Source: a virus. From it: a stretch of DNA of 46,141 bases. Positions 40,803 through 44,994 of this stretch are shown here, piece by piece. The stretch lies in IMG/VR virus record IMGVR_UViG_3300025168_013811, positions 1 through 46,141 of that record. One strand, written 5' to 3'. The first letter of the stretch is position 1. Each line of letters opens with the position of its first letter. The position numbers and the translations under genes are program-made. Under the pieces are notes generated by a model. It saw nothing but the letters and a program-made list of their open reading frames with translations. It was not told the DNA's origin and searched no databases.

Positions 40803-41540
40803 ATGCTTAAACTAAAGAATTTGATTAAGGAAGCACTTCCGACAAAAGAAATCGACCCAATACAATTTCCAAATCCAGTTACCGGTGCATTGAAGAAGAT
40901 ATTTCTAAATAAAGGTGAACAGGATGGCGACCCCAATGATGATATAGTAAATACACAAAAAGCTTCTATACCAGCTGCAAAATTAAAAGCATCTCAAGAT
41001 GCAATATATTTAGGCAAGTCATTAGGAATGGCAGTTGGAGGAGTTAAAGGGGGAGATTTAGATGCAGTGATATCATCTGATAATCATATCTTGGATGGTC
41101 ATCATCGATGGGCAGCTACAATGTTTGCATCACCTACAACAGCTGTTGGCGGCGTAAAGGCAGATTTAAAGATAGGAGATCTAGTTCCAGTGTTAAGATC
41201 TTTAGGAGATGTATTTGGAAATGCAAGAAGAGGAGAACCAAAAGGAGGTGATGTGAATATATTTAAAGCAACAAGACTAGATATTGAAAATATAATTGCA
41301 GATTTAGATCAACAAAATACAGAATTTATCAATCCTGGTATGGCTTCAAAATTTGTAAATTCGGTAGGTGGTATAAATGTATTAGAAAAACGATTAAAAT
41401 TAATACAAAGAGCTAAACCACCATCAGGAGCTCCTGACAGAACAGATATGCCGGTAATAGAACCAAAGAAAGGGGAAATGCCTAAAATGAAAAATCTATT
41501 ACAAAAAGGTAAAATTGACGTAAGAGAACCTTACGCATAA
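40803..41540 (+). CDS. ParB-like nuclease-motif protein with capsid-targeting N-terminus
   Basis: 245 residues. The first ten residues, MLKLKNLIKE followed by Ala, match the length and end of the T4 capsid-targeting sequence (MKTYQEFIAE-A). Cleavage after Glu10 by a gp21-like prohead protease is predicted. The body has IPAAKLKASQ and ILDGHHRWAA (DGHHRW 98-103), the signature of ParB/Srx-fold domains that bind and in some cases cut DNA or hydrolyse nucleotides. A proline/charged C-terminal tail follows. If packaged, it could act on host DNA at injection or on the packaged genome. Function is inferred. Confidence 0.72.
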   Translation: MLKLKNLIKEALPTKEIDPIQFPNPVTGALKKIFLNKGEQDGDPNDDIVNTQKASIPAAKLKASQDAIYLGKSLGMAVGGVKGGDLDAVISSDNHILDGHHRWAATMFASPTTAVGGVKADLKIGDLVPVLRSLGDVFGNARRGEPKGGDVNIFKATRLDIENIIADLDQQNTEFINPGMASKFVNSVGGINVLEKRLKLIQRAKPPSGAPDRTDMPVIEPKKGEMPKMKNLLQKGKIDVREPYA

Positions 41541-41551
41541 CAGGGAATAAT

Positions 41552-42292
41552 ATGGAACCAGCAAAATCATTTAATAACGTTATAATAGGACAATTTGTAT
41601 TAACAGGAGTGCCAATTAAAGTATACGTTGGAGGACAATATTTAACTATTACAGATATCGATGATGTCGAAGATCCTACAATGGGATTTGGAATGGATGA
41701 ACGTGGACGAATGAACCATTTCGATTATCGTAATATTGAAACATTATTAATATCAGGTAATGAAGTTGATTTGGATACATATAATAAAGGTATGGGAGCT
41801 GAAGAAGAAGATTCTACAGAAGAAGAGCCTGCTGAAGAAGAGCCTAAAAAGGAGGAGTCAATTATGAAACTAGGAGATTTATTAAAAGAAGTTAGTGCAG
41901 AAGAGGTAGATGCAGAAGTAGAAGGTGCAGAAGCACAGATGGCTGCAGCAAAAGCAAAATTAAAAGCTGCTCAGGCATCAATGAAGAATACAGTTAAATC
42001 ATCTAAAGAAAAAATTAAAGCAGCTAAGTCACAGCCAATTGATGATGGTGTTGTTACAGAAGATCATAATCCATATACTTTTGGTATTGGAGATATAGTT
42101 AAAAATAAAAATGCATCTTGTCCACATCATGGATCAATGGGTGTTGTTAAGAAGTTAATGGACCTACCAAATAATATGGGTACAGTAGTATTGTATACAG
42201 TAACAAATAATGGTGCTACATATAAAGCCGGCGATGTTTTATCTAAAACGATGGATCAATTAGAACCAATTGCCAAGCCAGACGGAGTATGA
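41552..42292 (+). CDS. Two-part protein with an internal capsid-targeting start
   Basis: 246 residues. Residues 1-80 form a small beta domain (VKVYVGGQYLTITDI..., DERGRMNHFDYRNIE), residues 81-103 are a strongly acidic linker (EEEDSTEEEPAEEEP), then MKLGDLLKE-V begins at residue 105, followed by an Ala/Lys/Glu helix and a small C-terminal domain (GDIVKNKNASCPHHGSMGVVKKLMD). An in-frame ATG at 41864 is preceded by AAGGAGGAG at ideal spacing, so a second, 142-residue product starting with a capsid-targeting peptide is likely. The full-length form could be a scaffold-like fusion. No known family is identified. Confidence 0.65.
   Translation: MEPAKSFNNVIIGQFVLTGVPIKVYVGGQYLTITDIDDVEDPTMGFGMDERGRMNHFDYRNIETLLISGNEVDLDTYNKGMGAEEEDSTEEEPAEEEPKKEESIMKLGDLLKEVSAEEVDAEVEGAEAQMAAAKAKLKAAQASMKNTVKSSKEKIKAAKSQPIDDGVVTEDHNPYTFGIGDIVKNKNASCPHHGSMGVVKKLMDLPNNMGTVVLYTVTNNGATYKAGDVLSKTMDQLEPIAKPDGV
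41846..41866 (+). promoter_or_regulatory. Internal Shine-Dalgarno and in-frame start
   Basis: AAAAAGGAGGAG at 41846-41857, about 8 bases before ATG at 41864-41866, the best ribosome site in the window. It lies in frame within the 41552-42292 gene and begins the MKLGDLLKE-V peptide. Confidence 0.65.
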
Positions 42293-42924
42293 TGATAAAA
42301 TTAAAAAACATATTAGAGGGCACAAGGTGTTGGAAGGGGTATGAAAAGAAAGGTACTAAAAAACTTTTTGGAAAGACAGTTCCTAATTGTGTTAAACGAG
42401 AAAATGTAGCTCCCAATCATGATGGTAAGGCAGCACCATTCGGTTCTGGTTATGATGAACTTGAAGAAGATTTACGTAATTGGGTTAAACAAAAATGGGT
42501 AGATATATCTAGAAAGAAGAAAGGAGGAGGACATCCAGCATGTGGAGCATCCGCAGGAAAGAAATCAAGAGCAGGTGGTAAGAGAGCTTATCCTAAATGT
42601 GTTCCAGCAAGTAAAGCGGCTGGCATGAGTAAAAAGGCTAAATCATCAGCTACAAGAAGAAAGAGGGCTGTATACAAAGGTAAGAAAGGTAAGCCACCTA
42701 AAAAGGCAAAAAATGTTTCTACAAAGGCAGAAGCAATTTTAAAAGAAAGATTGATAGAATATTTAACACAATTATCAGAAAAGGCAAAAAGAGATAAATG
42801 TTATTATAAAGTAAAGGCTAGATACGACGTATGGCCATCAGCATATGGTTCATTATCATTATCAAAATGTAGAAAGGTTGGCGCAGCAAATTGGGGTAAC
42901 AAATCTAAAAAAGGGAAGAAATAA
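42289..42924 (+). CDS. Highly basic Cys-module protein with capsid-targeting N-terminus
   Basis: 211 residues, very Lys/Arg rich (DNA-binding in appearance). It starts MMIKLKNILE-G, a capsid-targeting-like peptide. Three short modules each hold one Cys pair: RCWKGYEKKG...VPNCVK, a GGGHPACGAS...YPKCVPA stretch and KCYYKVKARYDVW...KCRKVG. Similar modules turn up repeatedly in small proteins of marine phages; some are listed as domains of unknown function. It could condense the genome in the capsid or be an injected DNA-binding protein. Overlaps the gene before by 4 bases and the next by 1. Confidence 0.65.
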   Translation: MMIKLKNILEGTRCWKGYEKKGTKKLFGKTVPNCVKRENVAPNHDGKAAPFGSGYDELEEDLRNWVKQKWVDISRKKKGGGHPACGASAGKKSRAGGKRAYPKCVPASKAAGMSKKAKSSATRRKRAVYKGKKGKPPKKAKNVSTKAEAILKERLIEYLTQLSEKAKRDKCYYKVKARYDVWPSAYGSLSLSKCRKVGAANWGNKSKKGKK

Positions 42925-43280
42925 TGGATAAAGTTATTTATAGATCAAAAAAATTAGGATTAGAAATAATAGAACATATAAAGCCATTGATGTTTCAAGA
43001 AGCAGAATACCAAGGAAAGAAAGTTAAACTTGGTAAAGTTAAACGTGGTGGCTCTAGGAAATTTTATGTATATGTGAAAAATCCAAAGACTGATAATGTT
43101 AAAAAGGTTTCATTCGGAGATAATACAGGTCTTAGTATTAAGACAAAAGACCCTAAACGAAGAAAATCTTTCAAAGCAAGACACAAATGTGATCAAAAGA
43201 AAGATAGAACCAAAGCCGGATATTGGTCATGTAGAATGTGGGCTGGTCCAGATTCTGTAAAAAATATGTTGAAGAAGTAA
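42924..43280 (+). CDS. Small basic Cys-pair protein, possible capsid-internal protein
   Basis: 118 residues, basic. C-terminal module RHKCDQKKDRTKAGYWSCRMW is a Cys-pair element seen in many marine phage proteins. The N-terminal 28 residues end in LMFQE-A, a weaker candidate protease site. A YxxKKVKLGKVKRGGSRKFYVYVK stretch suggests a small beta-barrel (residues about 28-55). It belongs to the same run as the capsid-targeted proteins, so packaging is plausible but not as well supported. Confidence 0.58.
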   Translation: MDKVIYRSKKLGLEIIEHIKPLMFQEAEYQGKKVKLGKVKRGGSRKFYVYVKNPKTDNVKKVSFGDNTGLSIKTKDPKRRKSFKARHKCDQKKDRTKAGYWSCRMWAGPDSVKNMLKK

Positions 43281-43281
43281 T

Positions 43282-43770
43282 ATGAAAAAATTAAAGCAAT
43301 TTGCAAAAGAAATAAAGGAATCTATTATAACAGAAGGAGTACTTTCTGATTGGGGAGATAATAATACTCCAGCAGCTCTTAAGAAAGAAAAGGAAATTAA
43401 AAATAAAAAGGTTAAGCCTGAAGATGCAATAACTGATTTAGATTTGAATACTTTAAATAGAAATCAAACTGTTAAAGAATATCGTTACGGACCATTGAAT
43501 CCAGATGATGAAAAAGGATCTGCTAAATTTTGGGAAGATAAAGCAGATATGTGGGATACAACAGTAGATCATGCAAAGACGTCTAGATGTAGCAATTGTG
43601 GAGCATTTGATCAAAAAAAATCGACGTTAGGAAAAATAGAAAAGGCAATAGGAGAAGAAGGTAAAACAATAGTAAAAAATGCCAATGTAGGATTTTGTGA
43701 ATTCTTCTGGTTTAAATGCGCCGGAGCAAGAGTATGTGATGGCTGGATAGGAGGAGGACCAATAAAATGA
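43282..43770 (+). CDS. Cys-rich protein with extended capsid-targeting-like N-terminus
   Basis: 162 residues. It starts MKKLKQFAKE and has a second [LI]-x-E site, SIITE-G at residues 14-19, so the removable peptide may be 18 residues here. After a charged linker there is RCSNCGAFDQ, then GFCEFFWFKCAGARVCDGW: five Cys that could bind zinc. Similar Cys/Trp-rich ends occur in marine phage virion-region proteins. Function unknown. Confidence 0.6.
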   Translation: MKKLKQFAKEIKESIITEGVLSDWGDNNTPAALKKEKEIKNKKVKPEDAITDLDLNTLNRNQTVKEYRYGPLNPDDEKGSAKFWEDKADMWDTTVDHAKTSRCSNCGAFDQKKSTLGKIEKAIGEEGKTIVKNANVGFCEFFWFKCAGARVCDGWIGGGPIK

Positions 43771-44066
43771 AAAAATTAAAAGATATATTGAATGAGGTAT
43801 TACCTAAATTCAAATCACCACTAGAAGCATATAAATGGATAATGGACAAAAGAAATGAAGCCATGGATATTGAACAAGAGATGATGGATACAAATGCAGA
43901 AATACAACAACTGTATAGTGAAATGGAACAAGAAGCAGAAGCAGGTGGTGGACCAATTGCAAATCGCTATGGTAGAGAAATAGAATCACTTGAAAATAAA
44001 CATAGAATCTTAAGAGATCAGTTTGCTGAAATAATGGCTGAGATAGATGAATATGACCAAATGTAA
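43767..44066 (+). CDS. Coiled-coil protein with capsid-targeting N-terminus
   Basis: 99 residues. MKKLKDILNE-V is a near-perfect capsid-targeting-like peptide (Glu at residue 10). The rest is a long heptad-rich helix pair (about 32-99) with a Gly-rich turn (AGGGPIANRYGREIE). It resembles small internal or core proteins of T4-like capsids. Overlaps the preceding gene by 4 bases. Confidence 0.62.
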   Translation: MKKLKDILNEVLPKFKSPLEAYKWIMDKRNEAMDIEQEMMDTNAEIQQLYSEMEQEAEAGGGPIANRYGREIESLENKHRILRDQFAEIMAEIDEYDQM

Positions 44067-44086
44067 ATTATAAAGGAAGAATAGAT

Positions 44087-44326
44087 ATGGCAAAATTAAG
44101 AGTAAGTTTAGATACAAATGATGTAAAAACAATGTATAGAGTACTTGATGATTACATCAAAACAGCAGCATCAGCTAAAAATAAAGATACATTAACAGGA
44201 TTATATGATATGTTCGAATCTGGGGATATGGCTGACGAAATTTCGGATATGCTACAAATGATGGAATCAAAAACAAGTACTAAACCACTACTAAAAGAAT
44301 TCAAACGAATAGGTGGAACAAAGTAA
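44087..44326 (+). CDS. Small helical protein in the capsid cluster
   Basis: 79 residues, starts MAKLRVSLDTNDVKTMYRVLDDY. Mostly helical, acidic. It has no N-terminal capsid-targeting peptide, but a C-terminal LLKEF that resembles the site and may be chance. A good AAGGAAG ribosome site is present. The stop overlaps the superoxide dismutase ATG, so the two are translationally coupled. Confidence 0.6.
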   Translation: MAKLRVSLDTNDVKTMYRVLDDYIKTAASAKNKDTLTGLYDMFESGDMADEISDMLQMMESKTSTKPLLKEFKRIGGTK

Positions 44327-44994
44327 TGATTAGATTAAAAAACATATTAACAGAAGCAGTTCAACAAAAGTTTGAACAAGTAAAACTTAAATTCAAGTTT
44401 AAAGATTATGCACCTGCATTTGATGAGGAAACAATGAAGACTCATTACGGGAAACATTATCAAGCATATGTTGATAAGTTGAATGAAGCTATCAAAGAAG
44501 AAAATATTCCAGTAGTGATGGGAGAAGGAATGTCTGGAATAAGAACAATATTAAATTCAGTTTCAAAATATTCAGATAAGTTAAGAAACAATGGTGGAGG
44601 ATTTTATAATCATACATTATTTTTCAATAATTTAAATCCAGATGAAAAGGGAAAGTTATATGACGGACCATTAGAGGAAGCCATTAAAGAACAATATGAT
44701 AGTATTGATAAATTCAAAGCAGAATTTAAAGAAAAGGCGTTAGGCCATTTTGGCTCAGGATGGTGTTGGTTAATGAATCATAACGGTCAATTAAAAATTG
44801 CTACAACATCTAACCAAGACAATCCACTTATGGACATAGTACATGAGCCTGGCGATATAATTATTGCTTTAGATTTATGGGAACATTCATATTATTTAAA
44901 ATATAAAAATGACCGCGGCAAGTATATAGACGCATTTTATAAATTGTTATGTTGGAAAACGGCTAACAAGAGATTCACAAAAGAACAATATTAA
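44326..44994 (+). CDS. Mn-type superoxide dismutase with capsid-targeting N-terminus
   Basis: 222 residues. The first ten residues, MIRLKNILTE then Ala, match the T4 capsid-targeting sequence in length and cleavage end. The rest is a complete Fe/Mn superoxide dismutase: THYGKHYQAYVDKLN, GGFYNHTLFFNNL, FGSGWCWLM and LDLWEHSYYLKYKN. The metal ligands are His40, His96, Asp183 and His187, all present. GG at 91-92 and SNQD with Gln164 are the Mn-type marks. It converts superoxide to peroxide and oxygen. Predicted to be packed inside the capsid and delivered to the next host or to protect DNA, which is inference. Confidence 0.93.
   Translation: MIRLKNILTEAVQQKFEQVKLKFKFKDYAPAFDEETMKTHYGKHYQAYVDKLNEAIKEENIPVVMGEGMSGIRTILNSVSKYSDKLRNNGGGFYNHTLFFNNLNPDEKGKLYDGPLEEAIKEQYDSIDKFKAEFKEKALGHFGSGWCWLMNHNGQLKIATTSNQDNPLMDIVHEPGDIIIALDLWEHSYYLKYKNDRGKYIDAFYKLLCWKTANKRFTKEQY

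Follow-up and report, generated by a model that had tools for sequence, protein, structure and literature searches.

We analyzed a 46 kb virus fragment (IMG/VR record IMGVR_UViG_3300025168_013811, 46,141 nucleotides, positions 1 to 46,141; the window), toward the end of which several genes for unrelated proteins begin with a shared leader of the form M-x-[KR]-L-K-[ND]-[IL]-[IL]-x-E, here the KLK leader. Our analysis, which drew on hundreds of relatives, argues that this leader is a capsid-targeting propeptide of the phage T4 type, serving both for targeting and for cleavage, a reading to which we give a probability of about 0.85. The preliminary description of the window had proposed a T4-like capsid-targeting peptide, and the proposal is supported by the head machinery encoded in relatives, by the absence of leaders from random contigs, and by tags of the T4 internal-protein (IP) type that occur on the same body. 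Sequence comparison shows the shared tag, its conserved site, its co-occurrence with head machinery in relatives, and the swapping of tags on one body.

The leader in the window and in related viral contigs

Start-pattern statistics were based on 54 genes of the window. Open reading frame (ORF) calls placed the strict pattern at four starts (40803, 42289, 43767, and 44326; Table 1), against 9.5e-6 expected from the window composition (P = 1.75e-7 per gene), and all four lie within the 12 genes past 40.4 kb, that is, in the last 6 kb (hypergeometric p = 0.0016). The conserved positions are L4, [IL]7, [LI]8, and E10, the same as in the superoxide dismutase homologs described below. The ORF calls also bore out a longer variant at 43282, MKKLKQFAKEIKESIITE/G (a slash marks the predicted cut); including the residue beyond the site, this N-terminus reads MKKLKQFAKEIKESIITEG. 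At least five shared starts had been claimed, with 41864 among them as an internal one: the four strict starts and the long variant stand, and the sequence at 41864 is an internal copy in ORF 41552-42292. The segment is retained in homologs, yet its ATG is missing in two of three; given the good Shine-Dalgarno sequence AGGAGG, internal initiation at 41864 is possible, if unproven. Glu falls at residue 10, as had been stated, at 40803, 43767, and 44326; at 42289 the motif is shorter by one residue, and Glu is residue 10 only when the first of two Met residues is counted. A homolog of the 42289 protein (L004) has MIKLKDILLE.

The bodies behind the leader proved unrelated, as the preliminary description had it, with one assigned by Pfam, one at a weak level, and the rest without a known domain. 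The protein at 44326 is an Fe/Mn superoxide dismutase with both Pfam domains above cut-off (1.8e-33 and 1.4e-17). Residues H40, H96, D183, and H187, the presumed metal ligands, were invariant across 11 homologs. The AlphaFold model of this protein has a mean predicted local distance difference test (pLDDT) score of 84, and its leader scores far lower (Table 1). In jumbo contig G011, the superoxide dismutase bears a long-type leader, MKLKSSVQRRATITE/S, comparable to the variant at 43282. The protein at 40803 has no Pfam match, and a relative (L007) has ParBc_2 under cut-off; the best Foldseek matches of the 40803 model are weak ones to ParB/Srx folds, and the comparison weakly suggests a ParB/sulfiredoxin-like body. 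Pfam and PHROG searches found no known domain in the remaining leader bodies of the window; the body at 42319 matched PHROG families of unknown function.

We scanned viral contigs with a degenerate DNA pattern for the leader and obtained at least 120 matches, compared with 6 for a codon-permuted control pattern of equal degeneracy; 16 random long contigs (2.4 Mb) held 0 leaders. These controls and the window composition reject an artefact of chance or composition as the source of the leader. All ATG-led leaders in the collected loci amounted to 204 proteins in ~99 body clusters, consistent with the interchangeable payload that had been suggested for the window. Most of these leaders (170/204) start no more than 15 codons from an in-frame stop upstream, and 6/204 lie more than 40 codons into an ORF. 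By Pfam and PHROG matches, the payloads include superoxide dismutase, phage lysozyme, M23 peptidase, RimK ATP-grasp, NUDIX, RNase T exonuclease, zeta-toxin-like kinase, phosphoribosyltransferase, ADP-ribosyltransferase, and FMN reductase; LysM domains are also present, and some PHROG matches are to tape-measure families.

The members of alignment A1 were chosen by the leader, which makes column conservation there a circular argument for it. Evidence unselected for the leader comes from the superoxide dismutase homologs, from a 23-sequence alignment of ParB-like proteins, and from the position of the site. In contigs picked via superoxide dismutase, not via the leader, hydrophobic-x-E sites peaked at residue 10 (18 of 591 genes, ~2 expected); random viral contigs showed no such peak (7 of 1525 genes, ~6 expected). 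A strict rule of Ala, Ser, or Gly after Glu10 failed, since Asn, Lys, Ile, Asp, and Glu were seen there too.

Three groups of leader genes were also noted. In a 75 kb contig (G022), nine genes with a KLK leader are clustered within 9 kb, at 15.4-24.4 kb (locus L353). A YHxT segment, typical of ADP-ribosyltransferase-like folds, opens five body clusters (L131, L059, L055, L103, L355, L156), and these bodies are reminiscent of the injected T4 Alt enzyme. Phage lysozymes with a KLK leader occur in the superoxide dismutase lineage (L003:92-625, Pfam 1.1e-27; L004:2507-3040), and would be odd as pure head cargo.

Scanning bacterial genomes for the leader gave 18 matches. The truly N-terminal matches were mostly on Flavobacteriales, Flavobacteriaceae, and Chitinophagaceae contigs, plus one archaeal metagenome-assembled genome; several of these contigs carry two or more leaders or a gp23, and we read them as phage contigs. 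The binning of leader contigs L487, L488, L491, and L480 with these three groups suggests Bacteroidota hosts.

Tag exchange, head machinery, and scaffold ends

We found relatives of the ParB-like protein at 40803 at 73 loci in viral contigs, the closer ones being ~50-60% identical in the body. Relatives bear tags of the T4 internal-protein type (MKSFKEYITE/E, MKSLNEFLNE/A, MKHIKTYQEFINE/D, and MKNIPTFEQFLNE/E), of which MKHIKTYQEFINE is a near-copy of the T4 tag MKTYQEFIAE, and more distant members begin RLQKLAGILKE/D, a tag of the scaffold-C-terminal type described below. Despite the differing tags, Glu10 is an invariant column of the 23-sequence alignment, which was built without the motif. 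Likewise, the proteins of L007 (MPIKLKSILKES) and L410 (MNKQILSKEFKRMQKLAGLITEA) have a common body (46% over 242 amino acids) behind a KLK and an FKRMQKLAG tag, respectively. These exchanges are our strongest argument that the three tag types do one job, one of them being the T4 tag, which has been defined by experiment. The phage collection held no cultured homolog of the ParB-like protein with virion proteomics. Separately, in a sister T4-like phage (L574; G058:26-44 kb), ORFs around S77 begin with tags of the T4 internal-protein type, MKNFESFDDFINES, MKNIQSFDEFVNES, and MKLKNYKDFLNES.

The preliminary description had pointed to related genomes as the place to look for the leader, a prohead protease, and capsid cleavage sites, and the leader, S77, gp23, and matching [LIV]-x-E sites were all found in relatives. 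Among KLK-leader contigs longer than 100 kb, gp23 (phrog_138) was present in 9/9 and the S77 prohead protease (T4 gp21-like) in 8/9; in the exception, G014, gp23 lies near the contig end, so the protease is probably beyond it. Random contigs of more than 100 kb had gp23 in 5/10, one weakly (Fisher p = 0.033 when only KLK-tag contigs are counted and 0.004 when those with FKRMQKLAG are included). Contig G006 encodes terminase, portal, S77 protease, an acidic scaffold, and gp23 in T4-like order, and carries the same superoxide dismutase, 59% identical to that of the window, with its leader (MIRLRDIITES). In G017 and G019, leader genes are found among those of the head cluster. In leader contigs, gp23 has LLENQA[KR]xL[IVL]xE/[ASGT] near residue 60 (LIVE/T in one contig), a site that we examined together with that of gp23 from Flavobacterium phage vB_FspM_immuto (Immutovirus). 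It is equivalent to the T4 gp23 cut FLTE/A, and the leader end has a like form. The protease ORFs of relatives also have [LIV]xE sites near their own ends.

The scaffold, encoded upstream of gp23, begins xLLKE/AIADAKAVRE in most contigs and has R[FMWL][KQR]KLA[GN][IL] at its C-terminus, after an [IV][IL]xE site. The KLK leader (KDILKEA) is like the scaffold N-terminus over a short stretch, a match that taken alone is only suggestive; the likeness of a second tag, FKRMQKLAG, to the scaffold C-terminus is strong. In the viral collection, FKRMQKLAG occurred 85 times after removal of redundancy: 74 copies were near N-termini, nine at extreme C-termini, and two internal, these last following an in-frame, start-like MKKQIL segment. 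Eight of the nine C-terminal copies were on proteins with the scaffold N-terminus, mostly with gp23 on the same piece (L379, L386, L388, L397, L409, L413, L418, L426). The N-terminal tags often run on to an xE site (for example, MKKQILSEEFKRMQKLAGIITE), and 9/9 long contigs with an FKRMQKLAG tag encode both S77 and gp23. Because FKRMQKLAG is almost confined to cargo N-termini and scaffold C-termini, the tags appear to copy scaffold ends. A fainter parallel exists in T4, where gp22 begins MLKEQLIAE/A and IPII and IPIII begin MKTYQEFIAE/A; T4 gp24 begins MAKINELLRE/S. The earlier reading had included neither the likeness of the leader to the scaffold N-terminus nor the sister tag of the scaffold C-terminus, and we propose FKRMQKLAG here as a putative new, scaffold-copying tag class. 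In immuto, gp003, gp092, gp077, and gp076 (L163-L165) share the N-terminus M..NFDLKKFLVENKLTxNS(R/K)LL, possibly another tag class.

Proposed role, alternatives, and known systems

If the leader is a capsid-targeting propeptide, translated cargo would bind the growing prohead core via its tag, probably because the tag resembles an end of the phage's own scaffold: the N-terminus for the type [DN][IL]LxE and the C-terminus for the type FKRMQKLAGI, each ending in or followed by a prohead-protease site. The gp23 shell would enclose the tagged cargo, the S77 protease would cut after Glu10, at the same [LIV]-x-E type as on the major capsid protein, and the freed cargo (superoxide dismutase, ParB-like, and others) would stay in the head with the DNA. 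It would most likely be ejected with the DNA into the next host, by analogy with T4 IPI and Alt, which provide the precedent for ejection of head proteins into a host (PMC3012670, PMC9026906). Payload genes would acquire or exchange tags. The T4 tag comprises the first 10 residues of IPIII, with residues 4 and 7 for targeting, 8 and 10 for processing, and a site of the form L/I-x-E (PMC9026906); the leader, hydrophobic at 4, 7, and 8 and with Glu at 10, agrees with these positions, its function being predicted.

We infer encapsidation, cleavage, and delivery of the leader proteins. Delivery into the next host, argued by analogy, is the somewhat favored outcome, and the virus probably carries enzymes into the next host cell. 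On balance, we lean toward a large lineage of aquatic T4-like phages with modular protein delivery, in which swappable cargo tags would mimic scaffold ends and the virion would deliver, for example, superoxide dismutase. That the packaged dismutase protects the incoming genome or the host from early oxidative stress is a guess. If this holds, the first ten residues of a protein would predict which of the many unknown proteins of aquatic phages are carried in the virion and are the earliest to act in the host; the T4 internal-protein idea would grow from a few anti-restriction proteins to ~100 body clusters including enzymes; mimicry of scaffold ends would be offered as the targeting mechanism; and natural tags for loading phage heads would be supplied.

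Several points weigh against capsid targeting. For none of the leader proteins did we find virion proteomics or N-terminal sequencing. The 46 kb window has no head gene, including the prohead protease, and most small relatives are alike in this; the protease and scaffold of the window's own phage are assumed from relatives, of which G006 is the one with a complete head module. In immuto, the closest cultured phage, the KLK tag occurs in diverged forms only (MIKLIDLLTES in gp231, MRLLELLREA in gp082). Lysozymes and M23 peptidases, neither of them obvious as head cargo, are among the leader bodies; the lysozyme-type ones may be injected wall-opening enzymes, or the tag may have other uses. Lastly, the residue after Glu10 is not confined to Ala, Ser, or Gly, and so cleavage possibly does not take place in every leader protein.

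An unlikely alternative, and the one that survives best, is that the tagged proteins serve as accessories of the core or scaffold while the head is built and are later degraded, not delivered. The T4 core proteins gp22, gp67, and gp68, which carry these same sites, undergo degradation, IPIII aids head assembly (PMC9026906), and the small Lys-rich and coiled-coil bodies at 42289 and 43767 could fit; however, this would not explain enzyme bodies with conserved catalytic residues, such as the superoxide dismutase with its invariant ligands, or the NUDIX, exonuclease, and ATP-grasp bodies, and bodies differ between phages. We consider it less probable still that the leader addresses another virion or assembly site (tail, baseplate, or membrane assembly site), with [LIV]-x-E being incidental. 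The lysozyme, LysM, and M23 bodies and the tape-measure matches would suit such an address, but the tag classes are similar to each of the two head-scaffold ends as well as to the T4 head tag, Glu is invariant while the rest of the tag is swapped, and leader genes sit inside the head cluster in two contigs. Very improbable is a DNA or RNA element for translation initiation or regulation with the peptide as a by-product, which the gene-start position and a codon skew (AAA at Lys5 in 93% vs 75% background) might favor, but the Leu, Ile, Lys, Asp, Asn, and Glu positions each use several synonymous codons, indicating selection mainly on the peptide, homologs substitute peptides of unrelated DNA sequence with Glu retained, and FKRMQKLAG is found at scaffold C-termini too.

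Capsid targeting by the leader has its nearest likeness in the T4 internal-protein system. The targeting sequence of IPI-III and the Alt propeptide share with it the ~10 N-terminal residues before unrelated bodies, Glu10, and L/I-x-E; S77 protease and gp23 occur in the same phages, and near-identical tags occur on ParB-like homologs. The two differ in the core (KLK[DN][IL]L here, KTYQEFI in T4), and the leader has far more payload families, enzymes such as superoxide dismutase, and up to nine tagged genes per cluster. For the T4 tag, an E10D change is reported to allow loading while cutting is lost. Immuto has a gp23 56% identical to that of G006 and an annotated prohead protease; its scaffold shares both ends, and its KNV73_gp230 and gp083 proteins bear FKRMQ/FRRMQ tags, but superoxide dismutase is absent from its annotation. 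In phage P1, an N-terminal signal of DarB is enough to bring a foreign protein into the head (PMC9024508); this packaging signal is N-terminal like the leader, but no separate scaffold has been identified and BLAST found no shared tag among the Dar proteins. Cargo enters the engineered P22 capsid when the C-terminal part of the scaffold is attached to it (PMC9962691). That system is engineered; the scaffold-like peptide used here is natural and precedes a cleavage site. To our knowledge, the P22 scaffold-fusion tag is not removed by a phage protease. In the open literature, we found no paper showing either tag peptide, the leader or FKRMQKLAG, and this is weak evidence that they are new; nor did we find one describing a superoxide dismutase that a phage packages by means of a targeting sequence, an absence that does not prove novelty.

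Features of the window

Table 1. Leaders, bodies, and neighboring ORFs in the last part of the window (protein length in amino acids; a slash marks the predicted cut)
Feature	Position	Strand	Protein	Evidence
Leader MLKLKNLIKE, predicted cut E10/A	40803..40832	+	245	E10 invariant in 23 homologs with different tags; residues 1-9 pLDDT <50 (AlphaFold2)
Candidate ParB/sulfiredoxin-like body (weak), DGHHRWAA motif	40833..41540	+		73 relatives in viral contigs; Foldseek E 0.025 best
Conserved acidic protein, no N-terminal leader, internal leader-like segment	41552..42292	+		ORF calls, homolog comparison
Internal leader-like MKLGDLLKE/V	41864..41890	+		AGGAGG 8 nt upstream of ATG; segment kept, start codon not always
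Leader MMIKLKNILE/G of ORF 42289-42924	42289..42318	+	211	ORF calls; one residue under canonical spacing
Basic Lys-rich body, WKGY...FGK..PNCVK motif	42319..42924	+		phrog_727 7e-22; PHROG families of unknown function
ORF without leader	42924..43280	+		G006 homolog (83996) fused behind leader MIRLKDLITE/A
Long leader variant MKKLKQFAKEIKESIITE/G of ORF 43282-43770, Cys-containing body	43282..43335	+	162	ORF calls; compare MKLKSSVQRRATITE/S
Leader MKKLKDILNE/V of ORF 43767-44066, coiled-coil body	43767..43796	+	99	ORF calls
Leader MIRLKNILTE/A of superoxide dismutase ORF	44326..44355	+	222	11 homologs: E10 invariant, L4 nearly so; residues 1-10 pLDDT <50
Fe/Mn superoxide dismutase body	44356..44994	+		Pfam; H40, H96, D183, H187 invariant

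Elsewhere in the window, ORF translations alone indicated an unusually large sugar-modification block at 11239-35782, with ~24 kb of glycosyltransferase, epimerase, aminotransferase, and methyltransferase-like genes.

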